Shown in pieces: positions 970-14,591 of a DNA stretch of 27,125 nt. The notes under the pieces are model-generated. The model ran no database searches. It saw only the letters and a program-made list of their open reading frames with translations, and was not told the origin of the DNA. The stretch comes from a virus: IMG/VR virus record IMGVR_UViG_3300021438_000061, positions 1 through 27,125 of that record; one strand, written 5' to 3'. How positions within the stretch are numbered: the first letter of the stretch is position 1; every line of letters starts with the position of its first letter. Position numbers and translations under genes: made by a program.

Positions 970-3123
970 ATGGCTCGAGGAATTTTTACCTTAAAGCAAC
1001 AATTGCAAGGTATTAGAGAAAAATCTTGGACAACGCCCTCTGCCTATTCTGGATTGTTTAATGGTGCCAGCCAAACTTTAACTATTACAACTGGAACAAC
1101 TACTACCATTCCCAGTGGAAATGATTTGTATACTATTGAGGCTTGGGTTAACCCAACTTATCTTGCAAATCAATATCATCCAATTATTGGTTGGGGAACT
1201 TTTGGCACAACAAAAGCAGTTAATGCTGTAAAGATTGAATATATATCATCAACCGAAACTAGAATTACTAACTATTGGTGGGGCAGTGATTTAAGCAGTA
1301 GTAATTGTTTTAGTTTGGGATTGATGGTAGGCAATTGGACTCATGTTGCCTGCACTTTTGATGGAACAACCAGAAGAATATTTTGTAATGGTAATTTAGT
1401 TGCTAGTGATACACCAACTGGACATAATGTAACAAATGTTAATCCTGTAATAATTGGTGGAGATAATACAGCTTATTTTACAGGATATATATCTAATATG
1501 AGGGTTGTAAAAGGTGTAGCAGTTTATACTGCAAATTTTACACCTCCAACAGGCCCATTAACCGCAATTAACGGAACCTCAATTCTTACGCTACAAAACT
1601 CTACTTTTATTGATAATAGCAGCAATGCTTTTGCATTTACAAACAACAATACTGTAACCACAGCAATTGTTACACCATTTAGAGCACTTCAAACCCCAGC
1701 AGTAGACTACCTTGTTGTTGCCGGTGGTGGAGGTGGTGGATCCGAGGCAGGAGGCGGAGCGGGAGGCTTACTTCAAGGATCTGTTCCTGTTGCCACAGGA
1801 TCTGCAATAACGGTAACAGTTGGTAGTGGTGGTGCGGCCGCTACAAATGGTCAAAATTCTGTTTTTGGAAGTATAGCCGCGACTGGTGGCGGTGGTGCGG
1901 TTGATGCTAGTGCAACAGGAGCCAATAGTGGTGGTTCTGGTGCAGGAGGAGGTAGTGTATCATCTACTAAAGGTCAAGGTACTTTTGGACAAGGCAATGC
2001 CGGTGGTGCTGGCGCTAATATCAATTCTGCCGGAGGCGGAGGTGGTGCCGGAACTGCGGGATTACCTGCAATTTCTGGAGTCGGTGGTAACGGTGGCGCC
2101 GGCATATCTTCTGCTATTAGTGGAACACTTACGGCATATGCAGGCGGAGGTGGGGGATCTGGTTATACAGGCACACAAGGAATCGGTGGTGTGGGCGGCG
2201 GTGCTGCCGGGGTTTACCTTGCAACAGCAAACACCGGAACACCAAATACTGGCGGAGGGGGTGGTGGCAGATGGGGAAGTCCCGGCGGAGCAGGCGGCTC
2301 CGGTATTGTCATCGTGTCATACCCTGACATATACGCTGCCGCAGCCGCAACCACTGGTAGTCCTGTGGTCAGCACCAGCGGGTCGGGAAGTATTGGATTT
2401 GGATTAAGCGGTAAAAACGATTCCACCCAAGAAAACTCATATTTGAATATAACAGGAGTTCCAAACCTAACTGGAGATTTTACTGTTGAGTTTTGGTACT
2501 ATTTAACAGGAACTACTGGTTATCAAGCGTTGATTAGTAATTATACAACGTCAACCACTACTACTTGTTTGTATATTACAACTGGAAACAATTCATCCGG
2601 AATAAGTTGCGGTATTGGCAACGGTTCTACTGAAGTCAATCTATTTAATGCATCATCTTTAGTGAGGAATACTTGGTATCACGTTGCAATATCTAGATCA
2701 GGCAGCACTGTTAGAGGGTATGTAAATGGAACGCTTAATGGAACAGCAACAAGTTCTGCGTCAATAACTGGAAGTCCTTATGCTCTTGGGTCTTACCCCG
2801 GAAATTATGCCGGTATTTATCCTCTTCAAGGTTATATTTCTAACGTAAGAATTGTTAATGGAACCGCGCTTTACACAAGTAATTTTACTCCGTCCACAAT
2901 ACCTTTAACCCCAATTTCCGGTACGGTGTTGTTAATAAATACAGTTTCTGGGGCGCCATTTATTGATGGGTCCTCAAATAATTCAAGTGTTATTAGATCT
3001 TCCGGAACAGGCGGGGCTGGGCTTTCTTTACCTGCCTGGAACCAAGCCAGCCCATTTGCAACAGGTTTGGGATATAAGAACCGTGTGTACACTTATAATA
3101 GCAGTGGCACAATAACCTTCTAA
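970..3123 (+). CDS. Tail fibre protein: LamG-like, glycine-rich, LamG-like
   Basis: This 717-residue protein has three parts. A concanavalin/LamG-like jelly-roll covers about residues 30-220, with the hallmark NWTHVACTFDGTTRRIFCNG. A glycine-rich module follows at about 244-455, starting VDYLVVAGGG and ending SGIVIVSYP. A second LamG-like domain covers about 475-690, with NTWYHVAISRSGSTVRGYVN and YISNVRIVNGTALYTSNFTP. The two LamG domains share the YISNxRxVxGxAxYTxNFTP motif, so one probably arose by duplication. LamG-like folds commonly bind carbohydrate, so glycan binding on the host surface is inferred. The protein ends SSGTITF like its neighbours. The gene starts 10 bases after the previous stop, behind GGTGA, and belongs to the same co-directional run. 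Confidence 0.82.
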   Translation: MARGIFTLKQQLQGIREKSWTTPSAYSGLFNGASQTLTITTGTTTTIPSGNDLYTIEAWVNPTYLANQYHPIIGWGTFGTTKAVNAVKIEYISSTETRITNYWWGSDLSSSNCFSLGLMVGNWTHVACTFDGTTRRIFCNGNLVASDTPTGHNVTNVNPVIIGGDNTAYFTGYISNMRVVKGVAVYTANFTPPTGPLTAINGTSILTLQNSTFIDNSSNAFAFTNNNTVTTAIVTPFRALQTPAVDYLVVAGGGGGGSEAGGGAGGLLQGSVPVATGSAITVTVGSGGAAATNGQNSVFGSIAATGGGGAVDASATGANSGGSGAGGGSVSSTKGQGTFGQGNAGGAGANINSAGGGGGAGTAGLPAISGVGGNGGAGISSAISGTLTAYAGGGGGSGYTGTQGIGGVGGGAAGVYLATANTGTPNTGGGGGGRWGSPGGAGGSGIVIVSYPDIYAAAAATTGSPVVSTSGSGSIGFGLSGKNDSTQENSYLNITGVPNLTGDFTVEFWYYLTGTTGYQALISNYTTSTTTTCLYITTGNNSSGISCGIGNGSTEVNLFNASSLVRNTWYHVAISRSGSTVRGYVNGTLNGTATSSASITGSPYALGSYPGNYAGIYPLQGYISNVRIVNGTALYTSNFTPSTIPLTPISGTVLLINTVSGAPFIDGSSNNSSVIRSSGTGGAGLSLPAWNQASPFATGLGYKNRVYTYNSSGTITF

Positions 3124-4436: not shown

Positions 4437-7400
4437 ATGCCTCGATACAGTGGAATCTGGACCCTAAGCCAGGTAAATCAGGCAATTAAGAATTTGGACT
4501 GGGAGGGTACCCCACCCACTGTAATAGAATACTTAGTAGTTGCTGGTGGTGGCGGTGCTGGTTCAAGATATGGCGGTGGTGGAGGTGCTGGTGGATTGCT
4601 TCAAGGCATTGCTGGAATTGCGCCAGGAGTTTCCTATAATGTAACTGTTGGTGCTGGCGGTATTGCAAGTACAGTAACCGGTACGGCTAGTAATGGTTCT
4701 GATGGAAACAACTCCGTTTTTGATGCTACTAGTTCAGGAGCATATACAGGCCGTATTGTTGCCGTTGGTGGCGGCAGAGGATGTGGAGCACAAGATGTAA
4801 ACTTTAGCGGTGGTTCTGGTGGTGGTGCCTCTTATCGTGGCCCAGCAAGTTCTGGCACTTCTGGCCAAGGAAATGGTGGTGGTGCAGCTGGCGTTGGTGG
4901 TGATGCATTTTTTGGCGGTGGTGGTGGTGGAGCTGGAACTATTGGTTTTAATGCTACTAGTACCCTTCCAGGAAATGGTGGTGCTGGTATTGCAAGCGAT
5001 ATTACCGGCACTAAAGTTACCTATGCCGGAGGTGGCGGAGGCGGTTCTGTTAACACTGCAGTTGTTGGAACAGGTGGGGCCGGTGGCGGTGGATTAGGTG
5101 CTGGAACTAGTGCTGGATATGCAGGCACGCCAAATTCTGGTGGTGGAGGGGGTGGTGGAAGTAGTACTTTTGGTGGATATAACGGTGGTGCTGGCATCGT
5201 AGTCATTCGTTACCCAGGCAATACGCAGTACTTTACCGGCGGCACCCTAAACTACAGCAACGGATATATTGTACACACTTTTTATAGTTCGGGTACATTA
5301 GCGCCAGTTGCTCCCAGATTATTTGCTTCGCCGGACTACCAGATTAGCAGATCACTAAGATTTAACAGTGCTAATAGTACATATCTAAGTCGCACTCCTA
5401 GTGCGGCTAGTAATCAGCAAACTTGGACACTTAGTTGTTGGATTAAACGTAGTGCTATTGGCACTGCAAGTAATGGTATTTTTTATCAACAAACTGCAAA
5501 CTCCGATACAGGTTATTTTGATATTTTATTTACCTCATCAGACACTTTAGTTCTTGAAGGATACACAACCATATGGCGAAATACAACTCAAGTATTTCGT
5601 GATCCAAATGCATGGTATCATATTGTTGTTGCTGTAGATACAAACCAAGTAACAGCAAATAATCGTATTCGATTATACGTAAATGGAGTTGAAGTAACTT
5701 CATTTAGTGCAACTGCCAATCCAACTCAAAGTTCAACTACTGGAGTAAATGGAACTGGTGCAGCTGGTCTTGGTAGAAATAATACTGCATATCTTAATGG
5801 CTACATGACCGAAGTCAATTTCATTGACGGTCAACAACTAACACCAGCCTCATTTGGTTATGTGGAACCTACAACCGGGGTGTGGACACCCTTACAGTAT
5901 GTGGGTACTTACGGCACCAACGGATTCTACTTAAACTTTGCAGATAACAGCGCTCTAACTGCCGCTACCTTAGGCAAAGACCTATCAGGCAATAGTAATA
6001 ATTGGACGCCAAATAATTTTAGTATTACTGCTGGTGCTACAAATAGTAGTATGGTAGACACACCAACTAACTACGGTGTGGATACAGGTGTGGGTGGCGA
6101 AGTACGGGGTAATTACTGTACTCTAGATCCATTAAATACTTATACTACTAATATTACATTAGCAAATGGCAATTTGAACTTTACACAAAGCGCATCAAAT
6201 GGTTTAACAATTGCTACAATTGGAGTAAACAGCGGTAAGTGGTACTGGGAATATCAACTTGGTGCAACAAATTATTGTGTTATTGGTATGTACCAATCAG
6301 GCTCATTAAGCATGACCTATCTTGGCCAAACTGGTGTTACTCTTTCAGTTACAAACGGTACTTCATTAAATCAATCCGGAGTAAGCGCACCAACTGGTAC
6401 AATGCCTGCATTTACATCATCTGATGTAGTTGGATATGCTTTAAATATGGATACGGGAACATTAACAGTTTATTTGAATAATGTTGCCAGACTTGTTTAC
6501 ACAGGATTAACTGGAACTTGGTTTCCAGCACAAGGTGCAAATGCTGCTGCATCTGGTATATTTAACTTTGGCCAACGCCCATTTGCTTACACTGCACCTA
6601 CCGGATTCAAAGCACTGTGCACACAAAATTTGCCAGCACCAGCTATATTACCACAAAAAGCATTTGCAGTAAATACATTTGCTTCCAGTTATTCTAATAG
6701 AGTTATTGGTACTGGCATTCAATCAGACTTTGTATGGGCAAAGCGCAGAGATGCTGCCAATGGTAATATACTATTGGATGCTGTTCGTGGTGCTGGTCAA
6801 ACTCTTCGTAGCGATACTAATGCAGTAGAAAGTAATGATGGTGCTTATTATGTTCAAAACTTTAATTCGGATAGTTATAGCATAGGCAGCAGTGATAATG
6901 CGCTAAATGGTGGGGCTGGTGCTACTTATGTAAGCTGGACTTGGAATGCTGGCGGTATAACTGCCACAAACACTGCCGGAACTGTTAGTGCTCAAGTTCG
7001 TGCTAATCCTCAAACAGGATTTAGTATTATAAGCTATACTTGTCCTGCAGCAAATGGTGCTTACTCAGTAGGCCATGGTTTAGGTACTACACCTTCTATG
7101 TTTATTATTAAATCAAGAAATGGTGGATACGATTGGTTTACATGGCATACAGTTTTAGGTACCTCACTAACTTCATATTTAAGACTAAATGGTAATTATG
7201 GTTTAGCAGATGCAGCAGGCATGTGGGGAACCGCTGGTAGAGACAGTACTGTTCTTGGTTTAGCAAACGGTGTTTCTACTATAGCTAATAATACACAAAT
7301 TATCTATTGCTGGGCAGAAGTGCCAGGATATAGTAAATTTGGTAGTTATATAGGTAATGGTTTAGCAGATGGTCCATTTATCTATTGTGGATTTAGACCG

Positions 7401-7673
7401 CGTTGGATTATGATTAAACTGTCTACTGCATCTACGAGTGAAAATTGGCAAATTATTGATACTAGCAGAGATACCTATAATGTTGCTGGATTAGAATTAT
7501 ATGCTAATTTATCAAATGCTGAATCAACTGGTAGCGGAAATTTAACCAGAGTAGATTTAACAAGTACTGGTTTTAAAATCAGAACAACAAATTCTGGTTG
7601 GAATACTAGCGGTAATACTTATGCCTATGCAGCCTTTGCTGAATCACCCCTAAAATACGCTCGCGCTAGATAA
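4437..7673 (+). CDS. Large multidomain tail fibre/adhesin (Gly-rich, LamG-like, SPRY-like)
   Basis: This is the largest protein here, 1078 residues. Domains in order: a glycine-rich module at about 29-260 (IEYLVVAGGG to GIVVIRYP); a LamG-like jelly-roll at about 300-475 (NAWYHIVVAVDTNQ, then RIRLYVNGVEV); a linker with LGKDLSGNSNNWTPNNFS; a SPRY-like domain at about 565-730 (GKWYWEYQLG, VVGYALNMDTGTLTVYLNN, FGQRPFAYTAPTGFKAL); and a C-terminal region at about 760-1078 rich in aromatic beta strands (DFVWAKRR, TYVSWTWNAGG, YCWAEVPGYSKFGSYIGNG). LamG and SPRY folds are binding modules, so this looks like a composite receptor-binding fibre. The start follows CAGGAG by 6 bases. The three shorter neighbours share only the glycine-rich part. 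Confidence 0.82.
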   Translation: MPRYSGIWTLSQVNQAIKNLDWEGTPPTVIEYLVVAGGGGAGSRYGGGGGAGGLLQGIAGIAPGVSYNVTVGAGGIASTVTGTASNGSDGNNSVFDATSSGAYTGRIVAVGGGRGCGAQDVNFSGGSGGGASYRGPASSGTSGQGNGGGAAGVGGDAFFGGGGGGAGTIGFNATSTLPGNGGAGIASDITGTKVTYAGGGGGGSVNTAVVGTGGAGGGGLGAGTSAGYAGTPNSGGGGGGGSSTFGGYNGGAGIVVIRYPGNTQYFTGGTLNYSNGYIVHTFYSSGTLAPVAPRLFASPDYQISRSLRFNSANSTYLSRTPSAASNQQTWTLSCWIKRSAIGTASNGIFYQQTANSDTGYFDILFTSSDTLVLEGYTTIWRNTTQVFRDPNAWYHIVVAVDTNQVTANNRIRLYVNGVEVTSFSATANPTQSSTTGVNGTGAAGLGRNNTAYLNGYMTEVNFIDGQQLTPASFGYVEPTTGVWTPLQYVGTYGTNGFYLNFADNSALTAATLGKDLSGNSNNWTPNNFSITAGATNSSMVDTPTNYGVDTGVGGEVRGNYCTLDPLNTYTTNITLANGNLNFTQSASNGLTIATIGVNSGKWYWEYQLGATNYCVIGMYQSGSLSMTYLGQTGVTLSVTNGTSLNQSGVSAPTGTMPAFTSSDVVGYALNMDTGTLTVYLNNVARLVYTGLTGTWFPAQGANAAASGIFNFGQRPFAYTAPTGFKALCTQNLPAPAILPQKAFAVNTFASSYSNRVIGTGIQSDFVWAKRRDAANGNILLDAVRGAGQTLRSDTNAVESNDGAYYVQNFNSDSYSIGSSDNALNGGAGATYVSWTWNAGGITATNTAGTVSAQVRANPQTGFSIISYTCPAANGAYSVGHGLGTTPSMFIIKSRNGGYDWFTWHTVLGTSLTSYLRLNGNYGLADAAGMWGTAGRDSTVLGLANGVSTIANNTQIIYCWAEVPGYSKFGSYIGNGLADGPFIYCGFRPRWIMIKLSTASTSENWQIIDTSRDTYNVAGLELYANLSNAESTGSGNLTRVDLTSTGFKIRTTNSGWNTSGNTYAYAAFAESPLKYARAR

Positions 7674-7682
7674 GGAGCACGC

Positions 7683-9128
7683 ATGAATTTTCCCATAAAT
7701 CCTACCCTAAATCAAACCTATACTTATGGCGGCAAAACGTGGAAGTGGGACGGCACAGCCTGGAACTTACAGGCTGCAGGGGTTGCACAGGCTACTGTGG
7801 CTTTTACAGGCAGTTTTACTGACCTAATTAATAAACCTACAACACTTAGTGGATACGGTATAACCGACGGTTATACCATTCCCACACAAACTGGCAATAC
7901 CGGAAAGTATTTAACTACCAATGGTACTGTAACTAGTTGGGCTACAATAGATGCGCTACCTAGTCAAACTGGTAATACTGGCAAATATTTAACTACCAAT
8001 GGTACTGTGGCTAGTTGGGCTACAATTACTGGTGGAGGTAGTCCTGGTGGCAGTACTACTCAAATTCAGTATAATAATGCTGGAGCTTTTGCTGGTAGTT
8101 CTAATTTTGTATGGGATAATACCAATAATATATTAGGTATTGGAGCTACTAGTGGTGCCTCAAGATTAACAATTAGCAATGGTACTGATTCAGCAACTCC
8201 AATAGTTTATATTGCTGGATATGGCGGTAATATGGCTCAAAATAATACAGCCGTATTAAAAATTTCTGCTAATATGAATACCACTAATGTGGCATCATTA
8301 TTATGGTTAGAACACAATAATCCTGCTGGATCAACTAGTTCAGATTATGCGTTTCGCATGACTGGTAACTTATACGGTGCGGCCCGTGAAATCTTTCATA
8401 TTAGGTCAGATACAGGAGCAACTTATATTAATCCTAGGAATGATATTGCGTTGATGTATTTTCAACAATCTAATACCACTCAAGGTACTATTTCTGTTTC
8501 GGGTACTACTGTATCGTATAATTCTTTTGCTGGGTCACATTGGAGCCAATGGCTTGAAGGTCGTGGACATACTCCTACTATTTTGCCTGGAACAGTGCTG
8601 TCAACTATTGACGAGATGTGCGTTTGGAAATCTAAAACTTGGGTTGATTATAGCGATGGACGGGATGATCAAATTATTGAAACTACAGAGATTGGCAGCT
8701 CAACAGAAAGTTTAAGTACTAAAGGTGGAATTGAAAGATCAGAATTCTATATTGGTGATGCCGCTGTTGGCACTACCATTATTGAAAATGGTGTGTCAAA
8801 AATAATTACTGATGATGGAAACGAACGACTACCAAAAGTAAAAATATCTGATGTAGTTGGTGATCGGCGTGTTTATGGAGTATTTATGGACTATGATGAA
8901 GCCCAAGATATTCATGTAACAGCAGTTGGCGCGTATTTTGTAAGAATTGCGTCTGGAGTAACTGTAACCGCCGGCGACTTACTAGAATCTAATGGTGATG
9001 GTTGTGCTCGTGTTCAAAGTGATGATTTAATAAAATCTTCTACTATTGGAAAAGTAACAACTAATATTAAAATTGCTGAATACGACGACGGATCGTACAC
9101 AGTGCCTTGTGTTTTATTTTGTGGATAA
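7683..9128 (+). CDS. Tail fibre protein with peptidase-G2/chaperone-like C-terminal domain
   Basis: This 481-residue protein starts MNFPINPTLNQTYTYGGKTW followed by KWDGTAWNLQ, a common fibre N-terminal module. It then has FTDLINKPTTLSGYGITDGY and two copies of a QTGNTGKYLTTNGT..SWATI repeat (residues 68-115). A beta-rich middle follows. The C-terminal 200 residues run from FAGSHWSQWLEG through PGTVLSTIDEMCVW, YGVFMDYDE, DLLESNGDGCARVQ and SSTIGKVT to VPCVLFCG. That C-terminal pattern resembles the autoproteolytic intramolecular chaperone domains (peptidase G2/IMC type) that help fibres trimerise and are then cut off. The resemblance is recalled, and no cleavage site is proven. A strong AAGGAG overlaps the preceding stop region. 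Confidence 0.75.
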   Translation: MNFPINPTLNQTYTYGGKTWKWDGTAWNLQAAGVAQATVAFTGSFTDLINKPTTLSGYGITDGYTIPTQTGNTGKYLTTNGTVTSWATIDALPSQTGNTGKYLTTNGTVASWATITGGGSPGGSTTQIQYNNAGAFAGSSNFVWDNTNNILGIGATSGASRLTISNGTDSATPIVYIAGYGGNMAQNNTAVLKISANMNTTNVASLLWLEHNNPAGSTSSDYAFRMTGNLYGAAREIFHIRSDTGATYINPRNDIALMYFQQSNTTQGTISVSGTTVSYNSFAGSHWSQWLEGRGHTPTILPGTVLSTIDEMCVWKSKTWVDYSDGRDDQIIETTEIGSSTESLSTKGGIERSEFYIGDAAVGTTIIENGVSKIITDDGNERLPKVKISDVVGDRRVYGVFMDYDEAQDIHVTAVGAYFVRIASGVTVTAGDLLESNGDGCARVQSDDLIKSSTIGKVTTNIKIAEYDDGSYTVPCVLFCG

Positions 9129-9130
9129 TT

Positions 9131-9463
9131 ATGGCAAGCCCAACTATTAAATTAGGATTTGCTGGTAATGTGTATACCAGAATGATGGTTTTTGAAAATG
9201 CTGGAGATGTTGAAGAAGGTCATACACATGATTTTGATCACTTAACACTATTAGCTTCAGGATCTTTACAAATTACTGCTAATGGTGAACATACTATTTT
9301 TCAATCCCCACATATGATTTGGATTAAAAAAGATGTTAATCATTTATTAACAGCACTTGAACCAAATACTGTTGCTTATTGTATTCATGGTGTTCATGGA
9401 AAAAATGGCGATATAGTTTCTAGTGACATGGTTCCACGGGGCGTTACTAAGTTGAATGTTTAA
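9131..9463 (+). CDS. Small cupin-fold protein
   Basis: This is a 110-residue single-domain cupin. The first cupin motif is EEGHTHDFDHLTLLASGSLQ, with metal-binding candidates His31, His33 and His37 and the closing Gly44. The second motif region contains His71 (IKKDVNHLLTAL). Small cupins include sugar isomerases, dioxygenases and plain binding proteins, and nothing here decides between them. A longer frame reaches 9107, but the ATG at 9131 is chosen because it lies 2 bases after the fibre stop (TAA at 9126-9128) and begins with a normal soluble N-terminus. The position among fibre genes suggests a structural or sugar-related role, by inference only. Confidence 0.72.
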   Translation: MASPTIKLGFAGNVYTRMMVFENAGDVEEGHTHDFDHLTLLASGSLQITANGEHTIFQSPHMIWIKKDVNHLLTALEPNTVAYCIHGVHGKNGDIVSSDMVPRGVTKLNV

Positions 9464-9729: not shown

Positions 9730-10932
9730 ATGAGTATTTCTCGAAATTTATCGGTGTTAGCTGATGCAGTTAACACCGCAGGTACTCTTGGTGCTCCTGG
9801 TGGGGGTTTGGGTACTAATGTTACTCCTACAAGTGGCGGAGTGCTATACGGAACTGGTACTACCAGTGGTTATACTAGTGCTGGTATCAGTGGTCAATAT
9901 TTACAGTCAACTGGTAGTGGTGCTCCTGTATGGAGTACAGTAAATGCTTTACCCACACAGACTGGTAACAGTGGCAAATATTTGACTACTGATGGTACTA
10001 GTCCTAGTTGGGCTTTTGTAATTGCACTGCCCACACAGACTGGTCAAAGTGGTAAGTATCTGACTACTGACGGCACAACGGCTAGCTGGGTGACAATTTC
10101 ACCATTTAATGGTGGTACAATTAGTAGTGCACTTAATATTACTGATAGTACGGCTAGTACTACTACTACAACTGGTGCGCTAAAAGTTGCTGGTGGTTTA
10201 GGTGTTGTTGGTGCAGTAAATATTGGTTCGTCAATTACTGCTACAAGTGCTACTATTAATGGTGCTATCAGTATTACTGGTACTGCAGGTATTACTGGCA
10301 TAACTAGCATAACTAATGCTACAGCAAGTACAACTACTGGTACAGGTGCATTAGTAGTTACAGGCGGTGTTGGCATTGGTGGTGCAGTAAATATTGGTTC
10401 GTCAATTACTGCTACAAGTGCTACTATTAATGGTGCTATCAGTATTACTGGTACTGCAGGTATTACTGGCATAACTAGCATAACTAATGCTACAGCAAGT
10501 AGTACAACTAGTAATGGTGCATTAGTAGTTACAGGCGGTGTTGGGGTTGGCGGTAGTGTAAATATTGGTGGAACACTAAGTGGCAGTATTTCTGCTAAAG
10601 TATATCAAGATAAAACTACAGCAATTACAGCTAGTACGGCTACAACAACAATTGACCTAAGCACAGGCAATACTTTTATAGTTACTATTAGCAGCAATAC
10701 TACTTTTAGCTTTACTAATCCACCCAGCGGCACAGATATGACGTCATTTACCCTTATTACAGTAAATGATGCAACCGCAGGCCGGGCCATTTCATGGCCA
10801 GCCAGCGTAACTTGGGCAGGCGGTGTTACTCCCACGCGCACTACTACTGCTAATAAATCTGACGTCTACACATTTTTTACCAGAACTGCTGGTACACAGT
10901 ATGTAGGTTCCTTAGCTATTTTAAACTTCTAA
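9730..10932 (+). CDS. Repeat-containing tail fibre protein
   Basis: This 400-residue protein starts MSISRNLSVLADAVNTAGTL. It carries two QTGxSGKYLTTDGT..SW repeats (residues about 76-118), then three copies of a repeat containing GALVVTGGVGIGGAVNIG (about residues 150-280). Two of these repeats are almost identical, with ITGTAGITGITSITNATAS. The C-terminal 110 residues form a beta-rich domain (TTIDLSTGNTFIVTISSNTT, ISWPASVTWAGG, FTRTAGTQYVGSLAILNF) that probably folds as the fibre tip. Repeats of this kind form elongated trimeric fibre shafts in many phages. It shares its SISRNL N-terminus with the fibre at 14588-15175, suggesting a common attachment point. Confidence 0.78.
   Translation: MSISRNLSVLADAVNTAGTLGAPGGGLGTNVTPTSGGVLYGTGTTSGYTSAGISGQYLQSTGSGAPVWSTVNALPTQTGNSGKYLTTDGTSPSWAFVIALPTQTGQSGKYLTTDGTTASWVTISPFNGGTISSALNITDSTASTTTTTGALKVAGGLGVVGAVNIGSSITATSATINGAISITGTAGITGITSITNATASTTTGTGALVVTGGVGIGGAVNIGSSITATSATINGAISITGTAGITGITSITNATASSTTSNGALVVTGGVGVGGSVNIGGTLSGSISAKVYQDKTTAITASTATTTIDLSTGNTFIVTISSNTTFSFTNPPSGTDMTSFTLITVNDATAGRAISWPASVTWAGGVTPTRTTTANKSDVYTFFTRTAGTQYVGSLAILNF
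10210..10501 (+). repeat. 171-bp tandem repeat inside the fibre gene
   Basis: Bases 10210-10330 and 10381-10501 are identical over 121 bases at a period of 171 bases (57 codons). The intervening part (encoding ALVVTGGVG.GG) is repeated less exactly on both sides, making about three units in all. The period is a whole number of codons, so unit loss or gain would keep the reading frame and only change shaft length. Confidence 0.9.
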
Positions 10933-10936
10933 TATT

Positions 10937-12055
10937 ATGAAATTAGCAGGCTTATTACAGCGCGAACGATCTGCAGTAGCAATTGTAGGAACTACTACTT
11001 TTAATGCACCAGGCATTTACTATCCACCATATGGTAAAAGTGTATTTTTATTAAGCGGAAAAGGTACTCCCGGTAATGCAACAGTACCGGGAAATATTAG
11101 TGGTAGTAATACTTATAGTTACAGTACGTATGTACCAGCTAGCGGTGGTAATGTGGCAGCATATTATCCAGCTACTGGTGGCAATGTTAGTGGAGATAAT
11201 AGTTATAGTTATAGTACTTATGTACCTGCTAGTGGTGGTAATTATGCTGGCGAAACTTACGGCGGTGCAAACTACGGCGGACAAAATCCCGCTAGTGGCG
11301 GTAATTACGCAGGAACAAATCCAGCCACTGGGGGTAATTATGCAAATACTAATCCGCCAGTACCTATTACTAGTACAGCTACTGTAAATTACGGTAGTAA
11401 CTTTGTACAACATTATCGCTATGATTATAGCTATCAAACATACTATTATAATAGTAATTTTAATTATTATACTAGTTATGCAGATCCAAGTGGTTATGCT
11501 TCAGGAACTTTTCCTGGATCTAATCCTAATTTATATAATCCTTGTTCTGACTTTGTAAGCTACTATAATGTAAAAATTAGTACAGCAACTAATACTGTTA
11601 CTAATGGTTATAATCCTGGAACTGCTAACTATAATCCCGTAGTACCTGGTAACCCCTATTATAACCCATATTATCCGGCTACTCCATATTACGTTCCTTA
11701 TAACGTACCTTATTATAATCCTTATACACCGGCTTATACATATAATACATATGTAGCAGGTAATCCTAATTATAATACATACTACCCTGCATATAGTAAT
11801 TATAATACTTACTACCCTGCTTATACATACAATACAACTGTACCAGGTAATCCTAACTATAATCCTACAGTACCTGGTAATACAGGCACAACTTATAATG
11901 TTTTAGGAATTACCCTGCCAGGAGGATCTAGTGATACTAGTGCTCCTGTTATTGGTTATAGTATAATTAGTGTGGATTATACTACTGCAGGAGTACCTAT
12001 TTCAGTACCTCCTGGTGGATATGTAGCCATTCAAAACAAATATCCTGGAACTTAA
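10937..12055 (+). CDS. Tyr/Asn/Pro-rich low-complexity structural protein
   Basis: This 372-residue protein has a short ordinary N-terminus (MKLAGLLQRERSAVAIVGTT, then FNAPGIYYPPYGKSVFLL). The middle is built from SGGNYAG-like and YSYSTYVPASGGN-like repeats (a 30-residue unit appears twice near residues 55-110). A second stretch is dominated by Tyr, Asn and Pro (YNPYYPATPYYVPYNVPYYN, GNPNYNPTVPGN). The C-terminal 60 residues are more complex and end in SVPPGGYVAIQNKYPGT. Similar PGNPNYNP-type proteins occur beside fibre genes in cyanophages and related marine phages, from general recollection. A flexible stalk or coat on the tail is inferred. The gene starts 5 bases after the previous stop. 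Confidence 0.65.
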   Translation: MKLAGLLQRERSAVAIVGTTTFNAPGIYYPPYGKSVFLLSGKGTPGNATVPGNISGSNTYSYSTYVPASGGNVAAYYPATGGNVSGDNSYSYSTYVPASGGNYAGETYGGANYGGQNPASGGNYAGTNPATGGNYANTNPPVPITSTATVNYGSNFVQHYRYDYSYQTYYYNSNFNYYTSYADPSGYASGTFPGSNPNLYNPCSDFVSYYNVKISTATNTVTNGYNPGTANYNPVVPGNPYYNPYYPATPYYVPYNVPYYNPYTPAYTYNTYVAGNPNYNTYYPAYSNYNTYYPAYTYNTTVPGNPNYNPTVPGNTGTTYNVLGITLPGGSSDTSAPVIGYSIISVDYTTAGVPISVPPGGYVAIQNKYPGT

Positions 12056-12059
12056 CATA

Positions 12060-12674
12060 ATGAACGTAAACCCCAAAGTGTTTGAAATTCCAACACTACA
12101 TATTCCGCTGGAGTATGTAGTAGTTTGGGCAAACGGTTTTAGTAGTGAAGACTTAGATGAAATTATTGCGCTAGGAGAATTAGCAGATTTTCAAAAAGGC
12201 TACATTGGCAGCGGAGCCAGCCCCGCAGATAAAGCTGTAGATACTGTAATTCGTGATACTGATATTGCTTGGATTGAACCCAATCAAAAATCAGAGTGGT
12301 TATATGAGCGAATGAAACAGTTTGTTACTAGAATTAATTACGATAAATATCAGTTTGATTTATACAATATTCAGGCATTACAATACGGCAAATATAAGCC
12401 TGGTGGACACTATACTTGGCATATTGATAGTGGCCCTAACTTAGACGTACACAGAAAAATTACTTTTATATTGGGTTTAACTGAGCCAGACCAGTATGAG
12501 GGTGGTGAGTTACTAATCAATGTAAGTGGTAGCACAGATAATGCTCATGAACTAAAAATCAGACGCGGTGATTTAATTGCCTTTCCCAGCTTTGTACCAC
12601 ATAAAGTCAATCCTGTAATCAGTGGCGAACGAGCCACCCTAGTTACTTGGGCTACTGGGCCTAAATTCAGATGA
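12060..12674 (+). CDS. 2-oxoglutarate/Fe(II)-dependent oxygenase (PKHD/prolyl 4-hydroxylase-like)
   Basis: This 204-residue protein has the complete facial triad of the 2OG-Fe(II) dioxygenases: His121 and Asp123 in GGHYTWHIDSG, and His181 in FPSFVPHKVNPV. The 2-oxoglutarate-binding Arg191 is in SGERATLV. The family couples oxidative decarboxylation of 2-oxoglutarate to hydroxylation of a substrate, often a proline or another side chain, or a nucleotide base. The substrate here is unknown. Its place directly after the Pro/Tyr/Asn-rich protein and before two structural-looking genes makes modification of a fibre component an attractive inference. The next gene overlaps it by 4 bases (ATGA), indicating translational coupling. 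Confidence 0.88.
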   Translation: MNVNPKVFEIPTLHIPLEYVVVWANGFSSEDLDEIIALGELADFQKGYIGSGASPADKAVDTVIRDTDIAWIEPNQKSEWLYERMKQFVTRINYDKYQFDLYNIQALQYGKYKPGGHYTWHIDSGPNLDVHRKITFILGLTEPDQYEGGELLINVSGSTDNAHELKIRRGDLIAFPSFVPHKVNPVISGERATLVTWATGPKFR

Positions 12675-13399
12675 AATTATTTTCTATTTTTAAAACGCCG
12701 GTTATAGAGTTTTTATGTGAGGAACGTTACTTAGATGTTGCTCCAGCTCCTGAACCGGCCATGAAAAATATTCCTGAATGGTTTAAACGCATTCCGCCCT
12801 ACAGCAAAACTAGTCGTGACTCGCATAACAGACCTAACATGAATGCTAAAAAATGTATGCCTATGTTAGATGCCATGAGCATTGGTTTCACTATTAGCCT
12901 ATTTATAGATCAGCATATTAAAACCAATCACGATTGTTCAGTAATTGAACCAGGCCCTACATCGGTTATGTTTGACAAAGCCGTAGAGTTTCACAGTTCA
13001 GAACAAGTAGGCGGACATTGTAGTCCTTTTGGCAAAACTAATCCTATTAAATTTATTAATCCTTGGATAGTTAAAACTCCACCAGGTTGGAGTACACTTT
13101 TTATACCTCCAATTAATAGTTTTGAAGATAGATTTATTTGCCTTAGTGGATTAGTAGATACTGATAGGTATCCCAAAGAAGTTAATTTTCCTGCAAAATG
13201 GCTTAAACCTAATTTTGATGATGTGCTCGCAGCAGGCACGCCACTAGTAACAGCCATACCAGTAAAACGCAGCGATATGAACCCTGAGTTTTTAGTTGGT
13301 GAATTAACTGATGCAGATAAGCAAAAATTAAACAAGATTAAAATGAATCAACTTGCTAGAAGCAGTTACTATACCAAAGAATTGCGAGCAAAGCGATGA
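12671..13399 (+). CDS. Conserved phage protein of unknown function (paralogue A)
   Basis: This 242-residue soluble protein has conserved-looking blocks PEPAMKNIPEWFKRIPPY, INPWIVKTPPGWSTLFIPP and AAGTPLVTAIPVKRSDM. The last two recur in diverged form in the next gene (CPWGIITKSGWSAHVIPAAF and AGTPLLQVIPFQREDI), so the two proteins are probably distant paralogues. It has no membrane segment or known catalytic motif. Proteins like this occur next to 2OG oxygenases in marine phages, from recollection rather than a search. The start codon lies within the oxygenase stop (ATGA overlap) and its own end overlaps the next start by 4 bases, so the three genes are coupled. Confidence 0.7.
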   Translation: MKLFSIFKTPVIEFLCEERYLDVAPAPEPAMKNIPEWFKRIPPYSKTSRDSHNRPNMNAKKCMPMLDAMSIGFTISLFIDQHIKTNHDCSVIEPGPTSVMFDKAVEFHSSEQVGGHCSPFGKTNPIKFINPWIVKTPPGWSTLFIPPINSFEDRFICLSGLVDTDRYPKEVNFPAKWLKPNFDDVLAAGTPLVTAIPVKRSDMNPEFLVGELTDADKQKLNKIKMNQLARSSYYTKELRAKR

Positions 13400-14115
13400 A
13401 CATATTTAAATCCAAAGTGCCACACATTAAATTTTTTACCGCATTTGGTGCGCCTAATGTAGCACAATTATCGCAAGTTAGACTTGCTAGTGATGTAGAC
13501 GTGCAACCTAAATGGGTTCGTGATCAACGTAGTTATAGTGACAATAAAAATAAGTTTTTAAATTGTCCAGGCATGGCAGACTGGATGAAAACCGGTTATA
13601 TTATACCAGCTTGGACAACTATTAAAATACGTGCTAATCGTGCAGATACTATGGTTATAATGGAGCATGGATACACTCCTCCTCCAGTACCTATGAATGA
13701 TAAATTAGTTACTGGGTTATTTAAGCCTGAAGCAGATGTAAAGTTTAAGGTTACTAAAATAACCTGTCCTTGGGGTATAATTACAAAATCAGGTTGGTCT
13801 GCGCATGTAATACCTGCAGCATTTCACAGTCCTTTTTTACAGGATTTATATGTATATCCTGGAACTGTAGATTACGATAAATTTCATACATGTAACTTTA
13901 TTTTTTCTGCTATGCGGCCGTGTGATATTGAAATACCTGCAGGAACTCCACTGCTACAAGTTATACCTTTTCAACGAGAGGATATTGTCGCAGTTTGTGA
14001 AAAAGGCCAGATTAAAGATTTAGATGCATTGAATTTTGGTTATCCAGCAAAACTTCGTGCTGCTTATCGTAAATTTTTTCATCAACGTAAAAACTATACC
14101 ATGGAGTATAAGTAA
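13396..14115 (+). CDS. Conserved phage protein of unknown function (paralogue B)
   Basis: This 239-residue protein is related to the preceding one through an aligned core: Pro-Trp-x-Ile, SGWSxxxIP and AGTPLxxxIPxxRxDI at corresponding positions near residues 115-200. The N-terminal half (FFTAFGAPNVAQLSQVRLAS, MADWMKTGYIIPAWTTIKIR) differs. The C-terminus is basic and rich in aromatic residues (AAYRKFFHQRKNYTMEYK). No enzyme signature is recognised. It overlaps both neighbours (4 bases upstream, 1 base downstream), placing it within a tight cassette with the oxygenase. A structural or modification-substrate role is possible but not shown. Confidence 0.7.
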   Translation: MNIFKSKVPHIKFFTAFGAPNVAQLSQVRLASDVDVQPKWVRDQRSYSDNKNKFLNCPGMADWMKTGYIIPAWTTIKIRANRADTMVIMEHGYTPPPVPMNDKLVTGLFKPEADVKFKVTKITCPWGIITKSGWSAHVIPAAFHSPFLQDLYVYPGTVDYDKFHTCNFIFSAMRPCDIEIPAGTPLLQVIPFQREDIVAVCEKGQIKDLDALNFGYPAKLRAAYRKFFHQRKNYTMEYK

Positions 14116-14591
14116 TGACAACAGTTTATAATATTGATAAACAAAGTAATCAGGTGTTAAGCAGTGGTCCAGTTCCAGCGGTATGGGGTACTATTAGTGG
14201 TATGTCTGATCTTAGTGAACAAGACCTAGCCGACCTAACTTGGGCAGGTTATCCAAATTACGGATTTTTAACTCGCCAAGCGGCACTAGCTCGCGGAATT
14301 ACTGCTAGTCAACTAGATCAAGCAGATTACCTATATAAAAAGTTGACTGTGCCTGAAAAGGTTACGATTCTGCAAATTAGACTAGCACTACTTAATGCTG
14401 GTTTGTTGGCTAGTGTAGAGTCCAGTATTGCCAGTATTCAGGACGCAACTCAACGTACAACTGCTGAAATTGAGTGGCAGTATGCACAGGAAATTCCTAG
14501 AAATAATTTCTTGGCCAATTTGCTAAAAAATTCCCTAAACTTAACCGAAGATCAAATCGACGACCTATTTATTGCAGCAGGTAAATTATGA
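14115..14591 (+). CDS. Fibre-associated conserved phage protein
   Basis: This 158-residue soluble protein has an N-terminal part containing VPAVWGTISGMSDLSEQDLA and a helical C-terminal part: VTILQIRLALLNAGLLASVE, then AEIEWQYAQEIPRNN, then LTEDQIDDLFIAAGKL. C-terminal domains of this pattern (RLALLxAGLL ... IEWxYA ... LTxxQxDDLF) are frequent in small proteins encoded beside tail fibres in many phages and prophages. Their function is not established. It shares single bases with both neighbours' start/stop signals (A at 14115; ATGA at 14588), consistent with coupled expression with the fibre at 14588-15175. An assembly-factor role is inferred from context. Confidence 0.65.
   Translation: MTTVYNIDKQSNQVLSSGPVPAVWGTISGMSDLSEQDLADLTWAGYPNYGFLTRQAALARGITASQLDQADYLYKKLTVPEKVTILQIRLALLNAGLLASVESSIASIQDATQRTTAEIEWQYAQEIPRNNFLANLLKNSLNLTEDQIDDLFIAAGKL

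Follow-up and report, generated by a model that had tools for sequence, protein, structure and literature searches.

A candidate prolyl hydroxylase gene beside a proline-rich repeat adhesin gene in phage tail-fiber cassettes

What is a 2-oxoglutarate (2OG)-Fe(II) oxygenase gene doing among the tail-fiber genes of a bacterial virus? The window analyzed here, by which we mean the whole IMG/VR record of 27,125 bases, carries such a gene directly behind that of a repetitive protein rich in proline, tyrosine, and asparagine. An earlier note on this DNA had guessed, from adjacency and composition, that the enzyme hydroxylates its neighbor. In the excerpted text of PMC9301287, the use that viruses make of prolyl 4-hydroxylase is called cryptic. 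Our analysis favors, with a probability of roughly 0.6, a fiber-modifying and probably prolyl hydroxylase encoded beside its own substrate.

The fiber gene run

The left half of the window is a series of fiber and structural genes, within which the repeat protein-oxygenase pair lies; the right half holds phoH together with genes for ribonucleotide reductase, exonuclease, and SbcCD-like proteins. The relevant features are as follows.

4437-7673: fiber/structural gene with Gly_rich_2 and DUF7483, matching virion structural families
9730..10932, + strand: upstream tail-fiber protein, 400 aa (phrog_9017 tail fiber protein, E = 5e-12)
10937-12055, + strand: repeat protein, 372 aa, ATG start, ending 4 nt before the oxygenase ORF
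12060..12674, + strand: 2OG-Fe(II) oxygenase, 204 aa, ATG start (PF13640, E = 4.8e-16; phrog_61, E = 3e-38)
12671..13399, + strand: DUF6065/phrog_7084 protein, 242 aa (PF19541, E = 9e-8; phrog_7084, E = 4e-48)
13396..14115, + strand: diverged paralog of the preceding gene, 239 aa (phrog_7084, E = 1e-22; 24% identity to its neighbor)
14115..14591, + strand: small cassette protein, 158 aa (phrog_6034, E = 2e-15)

Both ORFs of the pair are thus present as the earlier note described them. The C-terminal type of the upstream tail-fiber protein (..AGTQYVGSLAILNF) also precedes the repeat protein in relatives L036, L039, and L057. Between two fiber genes lies a small cupin-like gene (9134-9463), whose AraC_binding match (E = 8e-4) falls just under the cut-off. 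Megablast of the first 25,000 bases of the window against 50,697 annotated phage records returned no near relative, and tblastn of the repeat protein against annotated phages returned no match; a cultured phage with the window's cassette was therefore not found.

The repeat protein

The protein consists of conserved N- and C-terminal parts with repeats between them.

10937..11101, + strand: head, residues 1-55, with conserved TFNAPGxYxPPYGK and beta strands; its invariant columns recur in two alignments
11102..11848, + strand: repeat region, residues 56-304, with GGN(Y/V)Ax units followed by YNPYYP and PGNPNYNP units; the proposed substrate
11849..12055, + strand: C-terminal part, residues 305-372, LPGGxxDTSAPVIGY..VPPGGYVxIxN, with beta strands

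The architecture of the window's gene is mixed, in that GGN units come first and YNP/PGN units after; the protein contains 11.0% P, 12.1% G, 12.4% N, and 16.4% Y, with five PGN, five GGN, six YNP, and two NPYY sites. Its relatives in viral contigs are 40-51% identical over the best tblastn segment, and their alignment is conserved at the ends (start TFNAPGxYxPPYGK; end APVIGY..VP.GGYV.IQN) and variable in the middle. In 29 complete relatives the repeat middle averages 15.4% N, 14.8% P, 14.4% G, 12.0% T, and 12.0% Y, with 3.3% charged residues; PGN occurs 310 times against 29.5 in shuffles of the same composition, and YNP 247 times against 23.8. This roughly 10-fold excess bears out the repeats reported in the earlier note and argues that they are more than low-complexity composition. 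Among the 1,313 prolines of these middles, 515 stand before Gly and 556 after Asn, and the commonest unit spacings in the family are 10 and 11 residues. Because codons vary at the repeated PGN and GGN sites, the units do not look like a product of recent slippage.

The window's repeat protein belongs to no Pfam or PHROG family; neither Gly_rich_2 (PF21722, searched to E = 0.1) nor Collagen (PF01391) matches it, and its units are not G-X-Y. An AlphaFold2 model built from 21 sequences has a mean pLDDT of 53.7 and is confident in residues 11-50 and about 311-370, both of which carry beta strands. Block means are 64-95 for residues 1-60, 29-51 for 61-300, and 87-95 for 311-370, and residues 72-301 mostly fall below 50. 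We read the model as one beta-sandwich with the repeats forming a long inserted loop, itself modeled at low confidence. The extracellular stalk imagined in the earlier note does not appear in it; what AlphaFold gives is that loop between two confident beta-strand parts. Foldseek found no match to the model below E = 1e-3.

The oxygenase and its kinship

The oxygenase scores 59.9 bits against PF13640, for which the curated cut-off is 27, and its catalytic set is intact, as had been claimed.

12420-12422, + strand: H121, iron triad (HxD...H)
12426-12428, + strand: D123, iron triad
12600-12602, + strand: H181, iron triad
12630-12632, + strand: R191, basic residue for 2OG

All 14 cassette oxygenases in the alignment, the most distant at 34% identity, have H121, D123, H181, and R191 unchanged. 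When the oxygenase profile was compared with solved structures, PKHD hydroxylases matched best (E = 7e-16 to 2e-13), followed by 4iw3 (E = 1e-11), which we take to be the Pseudomonas EF-Tu prolyl hydroxylase, by entries named prolyl 4-hydroxylase (E = 3e-11 to 1e-7), and by Egl nine homolog 1 (E = 6e-7). On these profile matches the enzyme is akin to prolyl hydroxylases, which the earlier note had named among the members of its group, although PKHD entries match better. The PKHD-type proteins PiuC/YbiX (3dkq, 9qn0, 9ghl) match over the core only, and the oxygenase lies far below the cut-offs of their models: the NCBIfam model PRK05467 (PKHD-type YbiX/PiuC) gives 65.8 bits against a cut-off of 143, and the other three models were missed by more. 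We found no relative of the oxygenase in the genome contigs (Genome_contigs).

Co-occurrence in the window's class

We scanned viral contigs for DNA encoding PGNxNYNP, making no use of the oxygenase, and obtained 65 stretches on 57 contigs. Thirty of these contigs carry a repeat adhesin: 28 by motif density, plus L114 and L124, which have the same adhesin head and a density just below the threshold; L115, which encodes another phage protein, was taken out. An oxygenase is present in 28 of the 30, so the pairing does extend to other phages. It is the next gene in 26, at a distance of ≤36 nt in 24, 41 nt in one, and 119 nt in one, and it follows after two intervening genes in 2. In the remaining two contigs, which measure 128.8 and 85.2 kb and may be fragments, no oxygenase was found. 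Among control contigs, in which the pattern falls in another protein, only 1 of 23 searched has an oxygenase, with a much weaker score (4e-27); the control set comprises 23 of 27 contigs, the other four having no in-frame ORF. These pattern scans and controls rule out coincidence as the reason for the adjacency. Several contigs are close kin, so the 30 do not represent independent events; the aligned oxygenases of this class are nonetheless only 36-69% identical to that of the window, and their flanking genes differ. In the genome contigs, the 80 of 88 pattern stretches that we examined (L141-L220) held no repeat protein of the window's type.

Gene order in this class is nearly constant: repeat protein, oxygenase, two DUF6065 proteins, small protein. 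In L002 (2944-7858), four tandem paralogs of the repeat adhesin precede a single oxygenase, and in L086 and L048 a second adhesin follows the cassette; these arrangements suggest alternative fiber tips that use one enzyme in common.

Co-occurrence with collagen-like proteins

Two further classes of oxygenase neighbor are built differently. In L012, L018, and L021, the gene upstream of the oxygenase encodes a similar head followed by a GNPGTA-type collagen middle, and two oxygenases come after it. Pfam Collagen (PF01391) matches L012 (E = 1e-21) and L021 (E = 2e-12), as well as L266 and L496. We call this kind of locus marine for its kinship to ocean phages; the label says nothing of the habitat of the contigs. 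A scan for GNPGxxGNPG gave at least 120 stretches, and all in-frame proteins were scored. Among the matches listed, an oxygenase lies within 2 kb of 34 of 44 nonredundant GNP-class proteins flanked on each side by 1.5 kb or more, and of 20 of 20 of these that also match the head motif, a regular expression that misses or mistypes some proteins. For controls with full context, again among the matches listed, the figures are 3 of 40 for GPTGPT collagen and 2 of 37 for poly-Gly (Fisher's P = 3e-11 and 1e-11, respectively, in a test that ignores kinship among contigs). The idea that any collagen-like or Gly-rich phage protein has an oxygenase neighbor is ruled out by these control counts.

The third class came to light through 13 oxygenase relatives with 38-40% identity (L003-L011, L013, and L015-L017; many nearly identical). 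They might have passed for solitary oxygenases, a reading excluded by collagen-like genes on the other strand: in 12 of the 12 stretches with context, GPP-collagen genes are convergent (tail-to-tail) with the oxygenase, L013 being left out because its stretch ends 141 nt after that gene. Each array has three genes that encode GPPGPPGP-type runs; the first gene ends 4 nt inside the oxygenase gene. Three of the array genes were scanned, and they match Gly_rich_2 and Collagen weakly. The arrays of L003-L011 and L015-L017 encode short MPxLLD.. proteins that combine GPP-collagen runs with such weak Gly_rich_2 matches.

Marine cassettes often carry two or three different oxygenases. A second oxygenase with HxE in place of HxD (for example, YHVWHGEQ) stands beside collagen-class adhesins in L241, L256, L261, L266, L267, and others, often in tandem with the HxD enzyme.

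Reach of the association

We collected 63 distinct oxygenases. All 36 that match the cassette profile at E ≤ 1e-60, a profile trained on 14 of these 36, have a Pro/Gly repeat neighbor. That gene sits immediately upstream in 30 cases and is convergent in 4; in one case it is two genes distant, and in one it lies behind a second oxygenase. The other 27 score more weakly, and a Pro/Gly repeat gene lies upstream of just one of them, the second oxygenase of L021, though S-RSM4, MS29, HTVC008M, and S-PRM1 have Gly-rich or collagen-like fibers a few genes from the oxygenase. More distant superfamily members occur in cyanophages and elsewhere without a Pro/Gly repeat neighbor. The earlier note had held that an oxygenase occurring widely without the repeat protein would speak against the pairing; such occurrence is found in these distant members and not in the subclade to which the window's enzyme belongs.

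Approached from the adhesin side, a head profile gave 51 same-head proteins that have full context, 45 of them with an oxygenase within 2 kb, although this is not a blind count, because some of the loci used to build the profile, and loci on which it was run, had been retrieved through the oxygenase. A further four belong to adhesin arrays at 2.7-3.9 kb from the oxygenase, which makes 49 of 51 within the stretch; for the other two, on one contig, no oxygenase was found. Every same-head protein sampled contains proline, so an association with the head and one with proline are inseparable here. As in the window's class, loci are often related, and the counts are not independent.

Candidate target residue

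X-Pro-Gly is the sole feature common to all three repeat classes. In G-X-Y collagens the site modified by animal prolyl 4-hydroxylase is the Y position. Among the head-bearing collagens listed as matches, with GNP left out, proline stands at Y 337 times and at X 54 times; by protein, Y exceeds X in 48 of 57, X exceeds Y in 4, and 5 are ties. GPT controls, with GPT left out, show the reverse among the matches listed (87 at Y and 727 at X; Y over X in 4 proteins and X over Y in 77). Since sampling on GNP favors Y, we also examined proteins that had turned up in other ways. Among these, L012, L021, and L496 together have 47 prolines at Y and 1 at X, and L018 has 4 at Y to 3 at X. In the cyanophage S-PRM1 fiber the ratio is 1 at Y to 30 at X, and in the GPP class 115 prolines are at X and 86 at Y. 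Six collagen genes found through the oxygenase divide evenly (three Y over X, three X over Y), and six GPT-type collagens with an oxygenase nearby, among the matches listed, have proline at X. The GPP, S-PRM1, and GPT-type counts make the Y preference a property of one class rather than a general rule. For that class it is suggestive, given the report, in the excerpted text of PMC3368898, that bacterial and viral collagens have neither a Y-position proline preference nor a prolyl hydroxylase.

Tyr and Asn, also raised as targets in the earlier note, fare less well. Collagen runs of the GPP class contain 33.0% P, 1.5% N, and 0.3% Y, and Tyr makes up about 1-2% of marine upstream genes, which leaves Pro as the residue in common; GPP-class composition disfavors Tyr or Asn as a general target.

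Other cassette genes

In the window's class, most cassettes (L036, L048-L050, L057, L123, and others) have two tandem phrog_7084/DUF6065 paralogs after the oxygenase. The model of the 12671..13399 protein has a mean pLDDT of 77, and the structure matches listed for it are all dUTPases (best Z, 9.2; 114 residues aligned; rmsd, 2.8; 14% identity; Foldseek E no better than 1.4e-3), which may hint at a dUTPase-like barrel. Fifty phage records include DUF6065 relatives, and most of these are of tailed viruses of haloarchaea. A similar-looking small gene recurs at the cassette end, with similar starts in L036, L049, L048, L123, and L086.

Some cassettes contain a sulfotransferase-like gene (L124 1887-2594, PF03567 at E = 1e-5; equivalents in L129 and L130), a possible hint, from family resemblance, of further fiber decoration. 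The L050 gene at 7406-8029 has no Pfam match, but its N-terminal KTGTRS motif resembles this gene. In L109 a TIGR02466-like gene (2364-3032, minus strand; E = 3e-13, below the cut-off) follows the cassette, and the L136, L137, and L116 cassettes have an extra gene starting MKIFVSICSYRDPLL, a putative glycosyltransferase by its look.

Model and alternatives

We propose that the repeat protein would be the last component of the tail fiber, probably facing the receptor: a small beta-sandwich with a central loop expanded into a long Pro/Gly/Asn/Tyr repeat. Adhesin and oxygenase would be coexpressed during infection, and the enzyme, with O2, 2-oxoglutarate, and Fe(II), would hydroxylate the unfolded repeats before virion assembly, most likely at the prolines of X-Pro-Gly (VPGN, TPGN, NPG); the modified protein would then be assembled into the fiber tip. 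By our inference, extended chains of the polyproline-II-like or collagen-like kind would become stiffer once hydroxylated, and the adhesive surface would be altered. That the repeat protein is the substrate is likely, and that proline is the residue modified we hold, overall, to be somewhat better than an even bet. The original guess of an enzyme-substrate link thus gains from the recurrence of the pair in scans blind to the oxygenase and with differently built Pro-Gly repeats, whereas its Tyr/Asn targets and its stalk gain no support. Weighing against our proposal, the closest solved relatives of the oxygenase appear, by profile, to be PKHD/PiuC proteins. The two contigs with the repeat protein and no oxygenase, the GPT-type collagens that do have one nearby, and the superfamily members that lack a Pro/Gly repeat neighbor also count against it.

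The enzyme could act on the repeat protein at Asn, Thr, Tyr, or another residue instead of Pro. Asn is the commonest core residue of the PGN class, in which PGN is strongly enriched, and the several oxygenases of marine cassettes, some with HxE for HxD, would allow more than one residue type to be hit. The scarcity of Asn and Tyr in GPP-collagen runs, and of Tyr in marine upstream genes, tells against this reading, as do the named structure relatives of the oxygenase: most of them are prolyl hydroxylases, and asparaginyl hydroxylases fall in different branches. We consider it unlikely. Quite improbable, in our estimate, is a target in the host or a small molecule (a receptor, surface sugar, or iron physiology), with the oxygenase linked to fibers through a shared role in host interaction. 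Members of the superfamily are frequent in cyanophages, at various positions, and some relatives adjoin genes that read, from their sequence, as sugar-kinase-like (L020 and L022-L025); such a target would leave unexplained why Pro-Gly repeats of three builds recur beside the oxygenase while GPT-collagen and poly-Gly proteins mostly lack it, and why gaps between oxygenase and repeat gene span only a few to tens of nucleotides.

Adhesin cassettes are known as mobile, and the near-constant order in the window's class would also fit passive association, in which the fiber cassette travels as one unit and the oxygenase serves a structural or chaperone role, or none. The invariance of the catalytic residues speaks against this, and in the marine and GPP classes no DUF6065 pair adjoins the oxygenase, and gene order and orientation differ, so the pairing has survived rearrangement of the unit; we regard this last alternative as very improbable. 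Returning to hydroxylation of the adjacent adhesin, it is possible, though we put it at slightly under even odds, that a dedicated and widespread clade of phage 2OG-Fe(II) oxygenases, a subset of those now counted as auxiliary metabolic genes, hydroxylates the Pro-Gly repeats of tail-fiber adhesins, both in true collagens and in the extensin-like PGN/YNP class.

Relation to known systems and significance

The prolyl 4-hydroxylase of chlorella virus PBCV-1 is virus encoded and acts on peptides, according to the title of Eriksson et al. (1999) as cited in PMC9301287. It belongs to the same superfamily as the phage oxygenase, which matched entries named prolyl 4-hydroxylase, the viral enzyme presumably among them. 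PBCV-1 infects a eukaryotic alga, however, whereas the window derives from a bacterial virus with a candidate substrate next door; we know of no dedicated adjacent fiber substrate for the PBCV-1 enzyme. Animal collagen and its prolyl 4-hydroxylase offer a likeness in the Pro-Gly repeat and, for the head-bearing collagen class, in proline mainly at Y, but animal collagen is built of G-X-Y and the window's protein of 10- to 11-residue PGN/YNP units. Hydroxyproline-rich plant extensins are a closer look-alike, although Extensin_1 matches a relative at E = 0.03 only. Gly-rich phage adhesin domains, such as Gly_rich_2 and those of polyglycine-II adhesins, resemble the repeat protein in having beta strands at both ends and a long inserted repeat, and Gly_rich_2 occurs in the window's 4437-7673 gene and, weakly, in GPP-class genes, but the insert of the repeat protein is rich in P, N, and Y rather than poly-Gly. 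Side-tail proteins of Escherichia coli O157:H7 prophages also carry collagen-like segments in phage fiber proteins, but without prolyl hydroxylation or a Y-position proline preference, as far as the excerpted text of PMC3368898 goes.

Neither viral prolyl hydroxylase nor phage collagen is new by itself; what appears new is the linked hydroxylase-fiber cassette in tailed phages, together with a noncollagen repeat class. We found no description of such a pairing in open-licence PMC papers. Phage prolyl hydroxylases appear in lists of auxiliary metabolic genes, with no function assigned to them, and a candidate substrate linked to the enzyme in many phages opens the matter to direct test. The production of hydroxylated collagen-like or extensin-like materials could also draw on these hydroxylase-substrate pairs, which are small and would be expressed in bacteria. 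If a dedicated clade of the kind considered above exists, phage fibers would be collagen-like in chemistry as well as in sequence, and extra cassette enzymes such as the second, HxE-type oxygenase and the sulfotransferase-like genes would decorate the fiber further. A linked substrate would shift phage prolyl hydroxylase genes from "host metabolism" to "virion maturation."
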